Shown: in pieces, positions 4,312 to 9,902 of the stretch
How the letters are laid out: each line of letters starts with the position of its first letter
How positions within the stretch are numbered: position 1 is the stretch's first letter
From: Acidobacteriota bacterium
GTDB lineage: Bacteria > Acidobacteriota > Vicinamibacteria > Vicinamibacterales > UBA2999
Direction of reading: 5' to 3'
Length of the DNA: 51,435 bases
Assembly (NCBI GenBank): GCA_016190945.1
Contig: JACPPO010000146.1
Location: forward strand, 1-51,435
The notes under the pieces: generated by a model
What the model saw: the letters and a program-made list of their open reading frames with translations, nothing else
Database searches by the model: none
Told to the model about the DNA's origin: nothing
Program-made: the position numbers and the translations under genes

Positions 4312-5262
4312 GTGTCACTTAAGAGCCATGCCTATCCCTCGGCAGGCGATGTGAGGGTGCCGGCCTCCGTCGCCAATCTGGGTGGCGGATTCGATACCCT
4401 TGCGGTCGCGGTCCAACTGTATTTGCGCCTCCGGATCATCGAAATTCGCGAAGACGAGGGGACCAGGCTCACGGTGGTGAACAGCACCCCGCCGGTCAGC
4501 GGCAGGAACGCGGTCGAGCGGGCATTCGAGGCGATCGCGCGCTGGACGGGGCTGCGCGCCCCATCGGTCTTTGTCGAAACCGACAGCGAGATTCCGATGG
4601 CGGCCGGTCTTGGCAGCAGCGCGGCGGCGGCAGTCGCCGGCTTGCGCACGTTCGAGCGTGTCACCCAGCCGCTGCCGGAAGGCGTGCTGCTGGCGGTGGC
4701 GACGTCGCTTGAAGGGCACGCGGACAACGCGGCGGCCGCCCTGCACGGCGGGCTGACGTCTGTCGTCGAGCGGGAGGGGCGGGAGCCGCTCGCATTGCGA
4801 TGGGCGTGGCCCGAGCAAGTGCGTTTGATTGTCGCCACGCCTTCCGGCGGTCTCGCAACGTCAACGGCGCGCGCAGCGCTACCCGAGGCAGTGTCACGGA
4901 AGGACGCGGTGTTCAACCTGCAGCGGGTGCTCTCGCTCGTTCACGCGCTGCACTGCGGCGACTACGGGCGTTTGCGTGAAGCCGTTGAGGATCGGTGGCA
5001 CCAGCCGGCCCGCGCGGCTCTTGTTCCCCAGCTGGCCGCCGCGCTGGCGCTCGAGGATCCAGAGATTCTCGGGACGTTTCTCTCGGGCGCAGGGCCATCC
5101 GTTGCGCTGCTGGCTCGACGCGATTTTGGCCGCATCGAGCAGCTGCTCGCCTCAACGTACGAGCGTACGGGTTGTCCGGCGACAATCAGGACGCTCGGTG
5201 TGCACCAGGCGTTGGAGGCGGTCCCTGAAACGCTCGCCTCGGCGCATGGGAGAACCCTATGA
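4312..5262 (+). CDS. thrB: Homoserine kinase
   Basis: Phosphorylates homoserine to O-phosphohomoserine with ATP. GHMP kinase family: substrate-binding VPASVANLGGGFDTLAVA near the N-terminus and the ATP-binding loop PMAAGLGSSAAAA at about residues 95-107, with a C-terminal SGAGPSVALL motif. The start is GTG at 4312, 15 bp after hom; the nearby ATG at 4328 is out of frame. Its end overlaps thrC by ATGA, so translation is probably coupled. Length of 316 residues is normal. Confidence 0.94.
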   Translation: MSLKSHAYPSAGDVRVPASVANLGGGFDTLAVAVQLYLRLRIIEIREDEGTRLTVVNSTPPVSGRNAVERAFEAIARWTGLRAPSVFVETDSEIPMAAGLGSSAAAAVAGLRTFERVTQPLPEGVLLAVATSLEGHADNAAAALHGGLTSVVEREGREPLALRWAWPEQVRLIVATPSGGLATSTARAALPEAVSRKDAVFNLQRVLSLVHALHCGDYGRLREAVEDRWHQPARAALVPQLAAALALEDPEILGTFLSGAGPSVALLARRDFGRIEQLLASTYERTGCPATIRTLGVHQALEAVPETLASAHGRTL

Positions 5263-6518
5263 AATTCGTCGCGGGGCTGACCTGCCACCTGTGCGGGGCA
5301 ACGTATCCCGCCGAGGCGTTGTGGGTCTGCGTGGAGTGCCTCGGTCCCCTCGAAGTGTCGTACGACCACGCGGCGATACGCGGCGTCGTCAGCCGCGGCC
5401 TGATCGAATCGCGGCCGCCGTCCTTGTGGCGCTACCGCGAGCTGCTTCCGGTCGAGGAGCCGCGCACCGGTCTTCATTCGGGTTTCACGCCGCTCGTGCG
5501 CGCGACTCGTCTTGCGCGTGAGCTTGGGCTCGACGAGCTGTACATCAAAGACGATTCGGTGAACCATCCGACCTTTTCCTACAAGGACCGGGTCGTGTCG
5601 GTCGCGGCGACCCGCGCCGTTGAGCTGGGCTTCCAGGTGTTCGGGTGTGCGTCGACCGGCAACCTGGCCGGAAGCGTCGCCGCCCACGCGGCGCGCCTCG
5701 GGCTTCCGTGCTACGTCTTCATCCCCAACGATCTGGAGCCGGCCAAGATTCTCGGCGCCGCGATCTACGAACCGCACGTTGTAGCCGTCGAAGGCAACTA
5801 CGACGACGTGAACCGGCTGTGCACGCAAATCGCGGATCGCTACGGGTGGGGATTTGCGAACATCAATCTGCGCGCCTACTACGCCGAAGGCGCCAAGACG
5901 ATGGGCTTTGAGATTGCCGAGCAGCTCGGATGGCGCTTCCCCGACCACATCGTGTCGCCGGTTGCGGGCGGGACGCTCCTGCCGCGCATTTTCAAGGGCC
6001 TTCGCGAGCTGCGCGACGTCGGGCTCGTCAGCGGCCAGTTGCCGAAGATTCATGCCGCGCAGCCCTCCGGCTCCGCGCCTGTGATCAAGGCGATTGAAGC
6101 CGGCCTGGAGTTCCCGGAGCCGGTCAAGCCGAACACGATCGCGAAGTCGCTGGCGATTGGGAATCCGGCCGATGGATTCCAGGTCGTAAGGGTGGTAAAG
6201 GAGACCGGCGCGACCGGGGCCATGGTGAGCGACGAGGAGATCCTGGACGCCGTCCAGCTCCTGGCCCGGACGGAGGGCATTTTCGCGGAGGCCGCCGGCG
6301 GGACCACGCTGGCGGCCACGCGCGCGCTCATCAGGCGCGGCGTCATCAAGTCCAGCGAGTCCGTGGTGGTGTGTATCACCGGAAACGGCTTCAAGACCGC
6401 CGACGTGATGTTCGACCGGGTCGCGCGGCCGACCCAGATCGGCCGCGGACTGGCCGATTTCGAGCGCGTGCTTGGCTCACAGATTGGCGTCGTGGCCGCC
6501 GCTGCGGCGCGCGCGTAA
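5259..6518 (+). CDS. thrC: Threonine synthase
   Basis: PLP enzyme that converts O-phosphohomoserine to threonine. The N-terminus carries a CHLC...CVEC pair typical of the longer, zinc-ribbon-like threonine synthases. The PLP Lys lies in FSYKDR at about residue 109, and the phosphate-binding loop is ASTGNLAGSVAAHA. Length is 419 residues. The start ATG overlaps the thrB stop (ATGA). It is the last gene of the threonine operon; the next promoter starts about 50 bp downstream. Confidence 0.94.
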   Translation: MKFVAGLTCHLCGATYPAEALWVCVECLGPLEVSYDHAAIRGVVSRGLIESRPPSLWRYRELLPVEEPRTGLHSGFTPLVRATRLARELGLDELYIKDDSVNHPTFSYKDRVVSVAATRAVELGFQVFGCASTGNLAGSVAAHAARLGLPCYVFIPNDLEPAKILGAAIYEPHVVAVEGNYDDVNRLCTQIADRYGWGFANINLRAYYAEGAKTMGFEIAEQLGWRFPDHIVSPVAGGTLLPRIFKGLRELRDVGLVSGQLPKIHAAQPSGSAPVIKAIEAGLEFPEPVKPNTIAKSLAIGNPADGFQVVRVVKETGATGAMVSDEEILDAVQLLARTEGIFAEAAGGTTLAATRALIRRGVIKSSESVVVCITGNGFKTADVMFDRVARPTQIGRGLADFERVLGSQIGVVAAAAARA

Positions 6519-6568
6519 ATACGCTTCGAAATCGCGTCGAGCCATAAGTAAGTGTTCCCGAGCGGAAT

Positions 6569-6598
6569 TTGACGTTTCGGGGCCCCAGGTTATAGAAT
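6569..6598 (+). promoter_or_regulatory. Sigma-70-type promoter of the siroheme/sulfite reductase operon
   Basis: TTGACG at 6569-6574 and TAGAAT at 6593-6598 are separated by 18 bp; an overlapping TATAGA at 6591 gives 16 bp. Transcription should start at about 6604-6606, only a few bases before the ATG of the leader peptide at 6608, so the mRNA may be leaderless or nearly so. Confidence 0.6.
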
Positions 6599-6607
6599 CC
6601 GGACGTC

Positions 6608-6700
6608 ATGTTGTCCAGTTGCGGCCGGCCGGCTGCCTGTTACTGTACGAGGACCTGTCAGGTCCGGGCGCTGTCGGTCCGTCGCGTGGGTAACGATTAA
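6608..6700 (+). CDS. Cysteine-rich leader peptide (attenuator peptide)
   Basis: A 30-codon ORF starting MLSSCG, with Cys at positions 5, 11, 13 and 17 (segment ACYCTRTC) and ending GND before TAA. Four Cys in the first 17 codons is far above chance. It sits between a good promoter and an intrinsic terminator, ahead of genes for siroheme synthesis and sulfite reduction, which make the sulfide for cysteine. Known family logic for amino acid leader peptides: ribosomes stall at Cys codons when charged tRNA-Cys is scarce and let transcription continue. There is no clear Shine-Dalgarno, which fits near-leaderless initiation. No name is assigned; the coding call rests on codon content and the RNA structures. 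Confidence 0.75.
   Translation: MLSSCGRPAACYCTRTCQVRALSVRRVGND
6651..6669 (+). promoter_or_regulatory. Attenuator arms 1 and 2 (protector hairpin / antiterminator arm)
   Basis: GGACCT at 6651-6656 and AGGTCC at 6660-6665 form a 6-bp hairpin that includes the fourth Cys codon (6656-6658). The second arm extended, GGTCCGGGC at 6661-6669, can instead pair with GCCCGGAACC at 6730-6739 (9 bp with one bulged A), which is the 5' arm of the terminator. A ribosome held at the Cys codons would cover arm 1 and free arm 2 to disrupt the terminator. Confidence 0.65.
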
Positions 6701-6727
6701 CGAACCCGACAACACGCACACGATCGA

Positions 6728-6764
6728 AAGCCCGGAACCGAAATTCCGGGCTTTTTGTTTTTTT
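6728..6764 (+). terminator. Intrinsic terminator of the cysteine attenuator
   Basis: AAGCCCGGAA (6728-6737) pairs perfectly with TTCCGGGCTT (6744-6753) around a 6-nt loop, followed by a T tract to 6764. It lies between the leader stop codon (6700) and the sirC start (6772), not at an operon end, so it must be read through to express the operon. Confidence 0.88.
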
Positions 6765-6771
6765 GGAGACG

Positions 6772-7329
6772 ATGTTTCCAGTTTTTCTGAACCTCGAATC
6801 GCGCCGCGTCGTCGTGGTCGGCGGCGGGCCAGTGGCGGCCGGCAAGATCGAGGCGTTGCTGGCGGCCGGCGCGGACGTGACCGTGGTCGCGCCCCACGTG
6901 CGGCCGGAGATCGAGCGACCCGGGGTGCAGGTAGTCCGCCGACGCTTCGAAGACGCCGACTTGAACGGCGCGTGGTGGGTAGTCGCGGCCGCGCCCCAAG
7001 ACGTCAATAAGCAGGTGCTGGCTGCGGCGGAGGCACGGCAGATCTTCGTGAACGCAGTCGACGACCCCGGCCATGCCACCGCCTATCTCGGTGGAGTCGT
7101 GCGCCGGCACGGCGTTACGGTGGCGATTTCCACCGACGGCCGCGCACCGGCGCTGGCGGGGCTGCTGCGCGAGGCGCTGGACGCCTGGTTGCCCGGCGAT
7201 CTCGATGAGTGGATGGCGGCGGCCGATGAGGCGCGGCGCACGTGGAAAACGGAGGCGGTGCCGATGGACCAGCGCCGTTGGCAGCTGCTTCAGACGTTGA
7301 ACAGGTTGTATGCCGAGCGTACGAGGTAG
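6772..7329 (+). CDS. sirC: Precorrin-2 dehydrogenase / sirohydrochlorin ferrochelatase
   Basis: Oxidises precorrin-2 to sirohydrochlorin and, in Met8p/CysG-N type enzymes, may also insert iron to give siroheme. The N-terminal Rossmann motif RVVVVGGGPVAAGKIEALL and the DDPGHATAYLGGVVRRHGV segment match the N-terminal half of CysG. At 185 residues it is the stand-alone domain. ATG at 6772 is preceded by GGAG with only 3 bp spacing; a TTG at 6763 is possible. It overlaps cobA by 20 bp if cobA uses its first ATG. It is controlled by the upstream cysteine attenuator. Confidence 0.87.
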   Translation: MFPVFLNLESRRVVVVGGGPVAAGKIEALLAAGADVTVVAPHVRPEIERPGVQVVRRRFEDADLNGAWWVVAAAPQDVNKQVLAAAEARQIFVNAVDDPGHATAYLGGVVRRHGVTVAISTDGRAPALAGLLREALDAWLPGDLDEWMAAADEARRTWKTEAVPMDQRRWQLLQTLNRLYAERTR

Positions 7330-8089
7330 CGTGTCGCTCGTCGGTGCCGGCCCGTGGGATCCCGAGCTCTGGACGGTGCGCGCGGTGCGGCGCCTTGAAG
7401 AGGCCGACCTAGTGCTGTACGACGCCCTGGTCGATGTGGAGGCGCTGCGGCGTGCGACCAAGGCGCAGTGCTTCTGCGTCGGCAAGCGCGCCCGCCGTGA
7501 CAGCGTACCGCAAGAGACCATCCACCGCCTGATGATTCGCGCGGCGAAGCAGGGCAAGCGGGTGGTCCGCCTGAAGGGCGGGGACCCGTTCGTCTTTGGG
7601 CGCGGCGGGGAGGAAGCGCTTGCGCTGGTAATGGCCGGCGTGCCCTTCGAGGTCGTTCCCGGGGTCACGACCGCCGTGGCGGCACCGGAGCTCGCGGGAA
7701 TCCCGGTGACGCACCGCGGCATCGCGTCGGCGTTTCTCGTGTTGGCGGGTCACACGGCGGACGCCGTTGATAACACGCTGCGGTCCGTGCGGCCGAATAC
7801 GGTGTCGATGGTCATCCTGATGGGCGTCGGCGCGCGGGCAGACCTTGCGTCGAGGGTGATGGCGCACGGCTGGTCCGCGGACACCCCGGCGGCCATTGTG
7901 TGCGGGGCGTCGACGCCGGACGCCTGGACGTGGACCGGGACGCTCGTGCAGCTCGGCGGGGCGACGCCGCCCGCCGGCCTTCCCGGCGTGCTGGTCATCG
8001 GCGAAGTGGTGCGGGTACGTGAGGTGCTGGCGACGGCATCCAGGGCGGAACAGGCCGACACTGAGGTGAGTTATGGCCGTAACGGATGA
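7310..8089 (+). CDS. cobA: Uroporphyrinogen-III C-methyltransferase
   Basis: Transfers two methyl groups from SAM to uroporphyrinogen III, giving precorrin-2, the substrate of the upstream sirC product. SLVGAGPWDPELWTVRAVR, VVRLKGGDPFVFGRGGEE and the PGVTTAVAAPELAGIPVTHR segment are family hallmarks. Length is 259 residues from ATG 7310. A GTG at 7331, just after the sirC stop and preceded by ACGAGG, gives a tighter N-terminus (MSLVGAGP) and may be the real start. It overlaps sir by 17 bp. Confidence 0.93.
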   Translation: MPSVRGSVSLVGAGPWDPELWTVRAVRRLEEADLVLYDALVDVEALRRATKAQCFCVGKRARRDSVPQETIHRLMIRAAKQGKRVVRLKGGDPFVFGRGGEEALALVMAGVPFEVVPGVTTAVAAPELAGIPVTHRGIASAFLVLAGHTADAVDNTLRSVRPNTVSMVILMGVGARADLASRVMAHGWSADTPAAIVCGASTPDAWTWTGTLVQLGGATPPAGLPGVLVIGEVVRVREVLATASRAEQADTEVSYGRNG

Positions 8090-9902
8090 GGCGCCGACGT
8101 TCGGACGGGGACGTCCGTCGTTCGCCAACGAGCGGGACGTCGACGAGTTCGTCGATACCTTGAGGCGCTACGAGAACGGCGAAATCTCCGCCGACGACTG
8201 GCGGCGGTTCCGCCTCCTGCGCGGCACCTACGGGCAGCGGCAGGACGGGGTGCAGATGATGCGGATCAAGATTCCGCAGGGCATCGTCACCGGCGGCCAG
8301 CTTCGCACGCTCGGCGACGTCGCGGCGAAGTACTCGCGCGGCTTTGGCCACGTAACGACCCGCCAGAACATCCAATATCACTTCGTACTGTTGAAGGACG
8401 CCGAGCTGGTGATGCGCGACCTCGCCGAAGTGGGCATGACCACGCGCGAGGCCTGCGGCAACTCGGTGCGCAACATCACCGCGTGCCCGTATGCCGGCGT
8501 CGCCCACGACGAGGTGTTCGACGTGACGCCGTACGCCGAGGGGATGACGCGGTATTTCCTCGGACATCCGCTTGCGGGCTCGTTGCCGCGCAAGTTCAAG
8601 ATCGCGTTCGAGGGCTGTCCTCACGATCATGCGCTGGTCTCCATTCACGACCTCGGGTGGTTCGCGCGCAGCGTCAACGGCCGGCGCGGCTTCCGGCTGA
8701 CTATCGCCGGCGGCACGTCGATTCTGCCGACCTCGGGGTACCTGCTGTACGAATTTCTCCCCGCCGAACAGATGCTCGAGGTGGCGGAAGCGATCGTCCG
8801 GGTGTACCACCGCCTCGGCGACCGCCAGCACCCCCAGCGGAACCGCATGAAGTTCCTCATTCGTCAGCTCGGATGGGACGCGTGGCGGCAGAAGTTCGAC
8901 GAGACGCTGGCGGAGGTTCGTTCGGAGGGCGGTGTCCCTTTCAATGCGAGCGCGGTCGCCTCGGCGCTTGAACGCGCGCCGGACTGGCCCGCATCGCCGG
9001 CTCCCTCGCTCGAGAAGGTCAAGCGGACGGTGGCCGGCGTGGACGTCCACGGCCCGGGGATCATGCCTGGGACCGTGAAGCTGCAGACGTTCGCCGACGC
9101 TTATCTCAGATGGATGCACACCAATGTCGGACTTCAGCGCCAGGCCGGCTTCGTACACGTGACCGTGCGCCTGCCGCTGGGCGACATGACCGCCGGCCAG
9201 ATGCATGTGCTGGCCGACCTCGCGGAGGCGTACGGCGACGGCACGGCGCGGCTCACTATCGGACAGAACGTGTTGTTCCGATGGGTGAAGGTTGGCGCGA
9301 TCCAGGAGCTGTATCAGCGATTGCAAGCGGCGGGACTCGGGTCGGCCGGAGCGAACACGGTTGCCGACGTGGTGAGCTGTCCTGGTGCCGAAAGCTGCCG
9401 CCTGGCGGTCACGCAGTCGCGCGGACTCGGACGCATCTTGACCGAATACCTGGATCGTCGCCCGGAATTGGTGGCGCTCGTCCAGGAAGGGGACATCAAG
9501 ATCAGCGGCTGCCCCAACGGCTGCGGCCAGCACCACATTGCCGCCATCGGCTTCCAGGGGAGCGTCCGCAAGGTGGGCAACCAGGCGCTTCCGCAGTATT
9601 TCGTCTTGGTCGGCGGCGGCAGCACCGAGTCAGGCGCGCAATTCGGGCGGGTGGTGTCGAAAGTCCCGGTCCGCCGCCTGACGACCGCGATCGATCGGCT
9701 GCTGACGCTCTACCAGGAGCGGCGCGACCCGGGCGAATCGCCGGGTGCGTTCTTCAGGCGTATCCCCGCGGCGACCGCAACCGACGCGTTGAAGGATCTC
9801 GCGCAGGTTCTGCCGAATGAGACAACCGCAGACGACTATATCGATCTGGGCGAAACGGGGACGTTCGAAATGGTCGTGATGGACGGGGAGTGCGCCTCGT
9901 AG
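8073..9902 (+). CDS. sir: Ferredoxin-type sulfite (or nitrite) reductase, siroheme protein
   Basis: A 609-residue siroheme/[4Fe-4S] enzyme that reduces sulfite to sulfide, or nitrite to ammonia, in six-electron steps. It has the duplicated ferredoxin-like and catalytic halves. The cluster ligands are SCPGAESCRLA (about residue 436-442) and ISGCPNGCGQH (about 480-484); the siroheme-site Arg segment is in NSVRNITACPYAG. Sequence alone does not separate sulfite from nitrite reductases. The cysteine leader peptide and siroheme genes in the same operon favour sulfite. The start overlaps cobA. Confidence 0.88.
   Translation: MAVTDEAPTFGRGRPSFANERDVDEFVDTLRRYENGEISADDWRRFRLLRGTYGQRQDGVQMMRIKIPQGIVTGGQLRTLGDVAAKYSRGFGHVTTRQNIQYHFVLLKDAELVMRDLAEVGMTTREACGNSVRNITACPYAGVAHDEVFDVTPYAEGMTRYFLGHPLAGSLPRKFKIAFEGCPHDHALVSIHDLGWFARSVNGRRGFRLTIAGGTSILPTSGYLLYEFLPAEQMLEVAEAIVRVYHRLGDRQHPQRNRMKFLIRQLGWDAWRQKFDETLAEVRSEGGVPFNASAVASALERAPDWPASPAPSLEKVKRTVAGVDVHGPGIMPGTVKLQTFADAYLRWMHTNVGLQRQAGFVHVTVRLPLGDMTAGQMHVLADLAEAYGDGTARLTIGQNVLFRWVKVGAIQELYQRLQAAGLGSAGANTVADVVSCPGAESCRLAVTQSRGLGRILTEYLDRRPELVALVQEGDIKISGCPNGCGQHHIAAIGFQGSVRKVGNQALPQYFVLVGGGSTESGAQFGRVVSKVPVRRLTTAIDRLLTLYQERRDPGESPGAFFRRIPAATATDALKDLAQVLPNETTADDYIDLGETGTFEMVVMDGECAS

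Follow-up and report, generated by a model that had tools for sequence, protein, structure and literature searches.

Leader peptides rich in cysteine and lacking terminators have been predicted in mycobacteria (Seliverstov 2005, PMC1262725), where leaderless Cys-rich short open reading frames (ORFs), including one before nirA, were subsequently demonstrated (Shell 2015, PMC4633059). The authors of the latter paper thought that these would be the first examples of cysteine-directed attenuation in bacteria, and the mycobacterial polycysteine control has been reported as translational (on Canestrari 2020, via PMC13236596 and PMC9031893). The element described here resembles these short ORFs in that a Cys-codon ORF, leaderless there and predicted to be nearly so here, heads cysteine/sulfur operons, several of them per genome, but it differs in possessing an intrinsic terminator, an antiterminator, and a predicted 3-nt 5' untranslated region (UTR), while the mycobacterial leaders have no terminators. 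The uORFC-8-2 motif of cysS in Rhodobacterales also combines a Cys-codon upstream ORF with an intrinsic terminator, and ribosome-mediated transcription attenuation was predicted for it (PMC8632094). This combination is common to both; however, in the description cited, uORFC-8-2 is located only before cysS, has tandem Cys at codons 14 and 15, belongs to another phylum, and is accompanied by no leaderless claim. Leader ORFs close to +1 that operate through terminator-type attenuation include ilvL of Corynebacterium glutamicum ilvBNC (1 nt from +1; PMC11857589) and Sinorhizobium meliloti trpL (at +1; PMC7298713). These two share the near-+1 leader ORF and the terminator with our element, but they concern branched-chain amino acids or tryptophan and belong to other phyla. 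The trp/his-type attenuators of enteric bacteria are similar in their regulatory codons, in their 2:3 and 3:4 pairings, and in the spacing between stop codon and terminator; the 1:2 pairing, which the window also has, may be a further common trait. Their leader ORFs are led by a Shine-Dalgarno (SD) sequence, unlike the leader studied here, and to our knowledge cysteine is not among the amino acids of this group. In the open-licence literature, we found no report of an Acidobacteriota attenuator that responds to cysteine. The components of our element all have precedents in other systems, so that it would extend a known kind of control and not found a new category.

We analyzed a 51,435-nt stretch of DNA (referred to as the window) from a soil-type member of Acidobacteriota. 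On the basis of its sequence, we predict that positions 6569 to 6764 are a cysteine-sensing, ribosome-mediated transcription attenuator of the met8-cobA-sir siroheme/sulfite-reduction operon, with its leader ORF on a nearly leaderless transcript (estimated probability, about 0.78). The features are as follows.

5259 to 6518, plus strand: thrC, the upstream neighbor, outside the element (profile match)
6569 to 6574, plus strand: -35 element TTGACG (promoter scan; in most homologous leaders, TTGAC precedes the start by a constant distance)
6593 to 6598, plus strand: -10 element TAGAAT (sequence; position-specific score over 77 leaders)
6604 to 6606, plus strand: predicted transcription start (promoter spacing; purine at -3 in 54/77 leaders)
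6608 to 6700, plus strand: leader ORF MLSSCGRPAACYCTRTCQVRALSVRRVGND, stop codon TAA at 6698 (translation; T/C exchanges at the third position of homologous Cys codons)
6651 to 6665, plus strand: 1:2 hairpin GGACCTG/CAGGTCC, the putative anti-antiterminator, right after the final main Cys codons (-8.8 kcal/mol)
6661 to 6691, plus strand: 5' strand of the extended antiterminator, pairing with 6704 to 6739 (permutation tests on homologues)
6727 to 6764, plus strand: intrinsic terminator (arms 6727 to 6737 and 6744 to 6754, then a T-rich tail)
6772 to 7329, plus strand: met8/cysG N-terminal domain (precorrin-2 dehydrogenase; TIGR01470)
7310 to 8089, plus strand: cobA, uroporphyrinogen-III C-methyltransferase (TIGR01469)
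8073 to 9902, plus strand: NirA-like assimilatory sulfite/nitrite reductase (best match NF007126, below its curated cutoff)

From the promoter, ORF, hairpins, spacing, conservation, and gene context, which were read from the sequence and its comparison with relatives, we infer the following mechanism. RNA polymerase would start approximately 3 nt before the ATG at 6608, and a ribosome would load at the 5' end of the transcript without an SD sequence. If Cys-tRNA were scarce, the ribosome would stall at the Cys codons at 6638 and 6644 and cover the 5' arm of the 1:2 hairpin (6651 to 6657); positions 6659 to 6691 would then be free to pair with 6704 to 6739 before the 3' arm of the terminator is made, resulting in readthrough. 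If cysteine were plentiful, the ribosome would reach the TAA at 6698 and disrupt the antiterminator, and the 6727-to-6754 hairpin with its T run would terminate transcription.

The TTGACG/TAGAAT pair (18-nt spacer; 10/12 consensus matches) is the only promoter-like site in positions 6480 to 6800, where shuffled sequences are expected to yield 0.2 ± 0.4. The earlier note had placed the end of TAGAAT at 6598 and the ATG at 6608, with no SD sequence and a transcript beginning 2 to 4 nt before the start codon. The coordinates are right (ATG, 6608 to 6610; gap, 9 nt), and the 20 nt preceding the ATG carry no GGAG, GAGG, or AGGAG core. Assuming that +1 lies about 7 nt past the -10 box, promoter spacing likewise predicts a start at 6604 to 6606, with G6605 as the best purine and a probable 5' UTR of 2 to 4 nt. 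An alternative -10 box, TATAGA (6591 to 6596), would give a +1 near 6603 and a UTR of 5 nt. The TAG at 6593 to 6595, inside the -10 box, is an in-frame stop that bounds the leader frame on its upstream side, so the candidate starts before the first Cys codon are limited to ATG 6608 and TTG 6611. The SD sequence of met8 (GGAG, 6765 to 6768) lies outside the terminator stem, and the hairpin ends 17 nt before the met8 ATG. Since met8 has an SD sequence and the leader ORF ahead of it has none, the two ORFs of the readthrough RNA would use different initiation signals, and how leaderless initiation feeds coupled attenuation would, if the model holds, become testable.

Homologous leaders were collected by two routes. 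A covariance model of nine leaders, the window's among them (R1), matched 81 of the 193 genomes of the window's class (E ≤ 0.01), and 60 of its loci, from 55 genomes, were read down to an E value of 1.2e-5. R1 contains the -10 and start columns, which means that its 60 loci were partly chosen for their promoter-start geometry; R1 does not include TTGAC. A sulfite reductase scan of named genomes provided 80 loci, of which 25 carry a Cys-rich short ORF and a terminator before met8 (before cobA in L013). These 25 were chosen for a visible Cys ORF among the loci with a met8 match (37 sequences, including the window). After removal of five duplicates from 86 loci, 81 distinct leaders were retained: the window's, 60 found with R1, and 20 found via sulfite reductase. 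A second model (R2) matched 69/193 class genomes at an E value of ≤1e-5, mostly in other clades (model matches).

The phylum-wide R1 search matched 42/396 genomes (E ≤ 0.001). The 16 matches read from outside the class (L248 to L263) are terminators and lack a Cys leader: their densest stretch holds no more than 2 Cys in 8 codons in 14 of them and 3, a value within the random range, in the other 2. L267, inside the class, is also a terminator without a Cys leader. Because of such cases, R1 matches weaker than approximately 1e-5 cannot be counted without being read. Among the non-Acidobacteria loci L036 to L080, we found no convincing Cys leader apart from that of L069, a Gemmatimonadetes contig, and hence of another phylum, with a candidate leader (MINRPNSAMCCTTCPSSRERPGNTGGCLS), TACGTT 9 nt before its ATG, and a terminator. 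L005, L007, L010, and L015 (examples of the many relatives without a leader directly before met8), as well as L016, L022, L025, L028, L032, L036, and L037, either have no leader ahead of met8 or provide too little sequence. Upstream of met8 in L020 and L030, the promoter and terminator are kept and the Cys leader is missing; these are possible natural loss variants, L020 being in a MAG of Luteitalea, which NCBI taxonomy places in Vicinamibacteria.

When leaders anchored by TANNNT are added to the TTGAC-anchored ones, 77 of the 81 have an in-frame start that follows the promoter at a short and constant spacing (no start was assigned in L170, L202, L024, and L033). In 61 of 62 TTGAC-anchored leaders, an in-frame ATG, GTG, or TTG is located 36 to 43 nt downstream from the initial T of TTGAC (modes, 38 and 39), compared with 0/62 and 9/62 for the other two frames of the same window and 3 to 22/62 for other windows in the same frame; the 62 leaders were selected for a start 30 to 50 nt after TTGAC, and the evidence therefore lies in these contrasts. 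With +1 at about 35 to 36 nt after the first T, the UTR of these leaders would be 2 to 4 nt. The geometry is also present in 23 of the 25 leaders found via sulfite reductase, which are independent of the covariance model. Over the 77 leaders, the mean -10 score is 6.2 at the expected place and 1.3 to 3.6 at eight shifted places, and the gap between the best -10 hexamer and the start is 8 to 10 nt in 52. A purine occupies position -3 in 54/77 leaders, with ATC or ACC often preceding the start, and 29/77 have no other in-frame ATG or GTG ahead of the Cys tract. The start codons are GTG (53), ATG (21), and TTG (3). GTG is a poor leaderless start in Escherichia coli, and its prevalence counts against the leaderless reading.

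A strict TANNNT rule recovered 32/81 leaders (shuffle mean, 2.3; maximum, 6) and missed many because their -10 boxes are often TACATA, TAAAAA, or a similar hexamer; we relied instead on the TTGAC anchor and the score. At the expected -10 position, a GAAGRGAGTACTT-like block is common to L019, L020, L021, L030, L031, and L035 and is possibly a different promoter type. Among structural genes of the class, delimited by a crude gene caller, TANNNT is most frequent at a 6-nt gap, the classical leaderless distance (14/351 genes); compared with the gap of 8 to 10 nt in the Cys leaders, this suggests that the latter carry slightly longer UTRs of about 3 nt. In the window's own genome, strict -10 boxes were found at gaps of 6 to 9 nt in 10 cases among 236 genes versus approximately 0.6 per gap elsewhere (crude gene caller). 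These counts, based on uncurated start sites, support the existence of leaderless genes in this genome and its class. An earlier survey reported TA-led genes in 3/3 Acidobacteria genomes (average, 13.3%; Zheng et al. 2011, PMC3160421); the occurrence of leaderless genes as such is therefore no novelty in this phylum.

The attenuator could also be real and its leader translated from a longer RNA, produced by thrC readthrough or from an upstream start, through SD-independent internal initiation. The gene thrC, with its end at 6518, has the same orientation, the promoter call derives solely from a consensus match, and an SD core (AGGAG, GGAG, or GAGG) stands near the start in 5 of the 62 TTGAC-anchored relatives, being absent from the other 57. 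However, the distance from the -35 and -10 elements to the start is kept in 77/81 leaders, before met8, cysD, cysH, and transporter genes, and upstream RNA would bring no SD sequence in the window. We consider a longer RNA unlikely. Comparison of the homologous leaders makes leaderless-type translation, as proposed in the earlier note, the best reading for the window's cysteine leader. It also suggests a refinement, in that the usual 9-nt gap predicts a UTR of about 3 nt and not a true 5'-AUG.

The window's leader has 30 codons, including Cys codons at 6620, 6638, 6644, and 6656. It had been likened to polycysteine ORFs; the peptide MLSSCGRPAACYCTRTCQVRALSVRRVGND is indeed Cys rich, but its four Cys codons are spaced and form no contiguous run. 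The window's tract is a weak one, with 3 Cys in 8 codons, a density that all 60 model-found relatives reach or exceed and that is also reached by 210/3,000 random pieces of its own genome. At least 4 Cys in 8 codons occur in 56 of the 60 relatives versus 13/3,000 random pieces. Within its own genome, four-Cys tracts are not enriched (13 matches versus 21 for the reversed pattern). In the three-codon Cys core, 31/210 third positions have C for T, all synonymous, compared with 7/428 changes at positions 1 and 2 (75 of 76 rows kept, with three antisense matches among them adding noise). This difference argues that the tract is conserved as codons.

A GC-rich stem followed by a T run is present in 80 of the 81 loci, the exception (L182) stopping at a contig end. 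The distance from the stop codon to the terminator is 21 to 53 nt (median, 30; 80 loci). The strand that follows the Cys codons is complementary to the 5' side of the terminator and to the flank upstream of it. For 34 diverse loci, this pairing amounts to -34.0 kcal/mol within a locus, compared with -28.2 kcal/mol with the terminator regions of other loci, and none of 5,000 permutations equaled the within-locus value; a test on smaller regions in 29 diverse loci gave -19.2 versus -17.0 kcal/mol (0/5,000 as good). On its own, the flank helix that precedes the terminator showed only modest specificity (23/5,000 as good). The 1:2 hairpin exceeds shuffles only slightly (mean z score, -0.67) and falls below -1 in 31/80 loci, which counts against the model. 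In the window, the antiterminator consists of a core helix (6661 to 6669 with 6730 to 6739) and a second helix (6674 to 6679 with 6722 to 6727). When the growing RNA was folded to 6741, 16 antiterminator pairs formed with the ribosome at Cys codon 5, 11, or 13, 10 with the ribosome at Cys codon 17, and 0 with the ribosome at the stop codon. Ribosome-free minimum-energy folding to 6741 likewise yields the antiterminator, so basal termination needs a kinetic argument. Once the 3' arm of the terminator exists, the terminator wins every full-length fold at equilibrium (-38.6 versus -34.1), and the switch decision must therefore be kinetic. No Rfam family matched at threshold within the element (Thr_leader, 22.6 bits; gathering threshold, 55). 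The same negative result was obtained for the elements in 20 related loci.

In M. smegmatis, leaderless polycysteine short ORFs are reported to act by translation attenuation (PMC13236596 and PMC9031893). If the same held here, the leader would govern how accessible the ribosome-binding site of met8 is, and the hairpin, the end of which is only 17 nt from the met8 ATG, would be incidental. We regard this as quite improbable, given the GC-rich stem and T run in 80/81 loci, the position of the met8 GGAG outside the stem, and the antiterminator complementarity aimed at the terminator arm; the window's element, having a terminator, falls outside the mycobacterial type of downstream sequestration. 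The chance that the hairpin is an ordinary thr operon terminator followed by an unrelated promoter and a random ORF appears very small. The element does lie behind thrC in the window and, judging by upstream sequence, in some close relatives; however, the promoter stands before the terminator, the promoter-leader-terminator unit also precedes cysD, cysH, and other genes (55 genomes), and the Cys codons are kept synonymously. That the Cys-rich peptide, with a C-terminal PALSVRR conserved in close relatives, is itself the product (e.g., for metal binding or as a RiPP precursor) is scarcely credible, since its C terminus is not the same in all clades and lies out of frame in L149, whereas the RNA pairing is maintained, and the downstream genes encode siroheme and sulfite-reduction enzymes.

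A trp-type cysteine attenuator, with a leader behind a predicted 5' UTR of 2 to 4 nt and reused on several operons in Vicinamibacteria, is the best reading of these comparisons. Sulfur-related genes lie downstream in all 58 of the 60 model-found loci that have downstream sequence. The first gene in the 81 loci is met8 (33), cysD (22), cysH (17), cobA (2), a YeiH-like gene (2), or a TauE-like, a ThiF/JAB/rhodanese, or a redoxin gene (1 each; 2 loci without sequence); the yeiH, tauE, tlpA, and moeB gene classes rest partly on queries from those same loci, and the redoxin locus has the loosest sulfur link. In addition to the met8 element, the genome of the window contains another one, before cysD (L148; G000:C91:10216-10386, minus strand; E value, 3e-34), which lay outside model building. 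This paralogue is stronger, contains CCC, and has the peptide MLSMCGRPCACCCMGTCRVPALSVRVHG from a GTG. Before a second met8 paralogue of the same genome (L113; G000:C95:1457-2008), no Cys leader is visible.

We lean slightly toward a broader proposal, namely, a cysteine "ribulon" of Vicinamibacteria, in which unlinked siroheme/sulfite reductase, cysD, cysH, and sulfur transporter operons would be coordinated without a repressor by ribosomes on near-leaderless Cys leaders controlling terminators, with a standard UTR of about 3 nt and an origin independent of mycobacteria. The earlier note had suggested that such a layout would be an independent case beside mycobacteria. The layout is similar, but it is class-wide rather than a single case, and a terminator follows it in 80/81 loci, unlike in mycobacteria. 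If true, the proposal would extend cysteine control by leaderless leaders to a second phylum, with transcription termination instead of ribosome-binding-site sequestration as the output, and would provide an entire class with a sensor, a target regulon, and a model open to testing.

Two further observations concern the surroundings of the leaders. In L013 (3074 to 3240), the leader is located between met8 and cobA rather than before met8, which suggests that the element moves within the operon. SAM riboswitches are present a few kilobases downstream of Cys leaders in L187 (5149 to 5264), L193 (5114 to 5220), and L174 (4970 to 5106).
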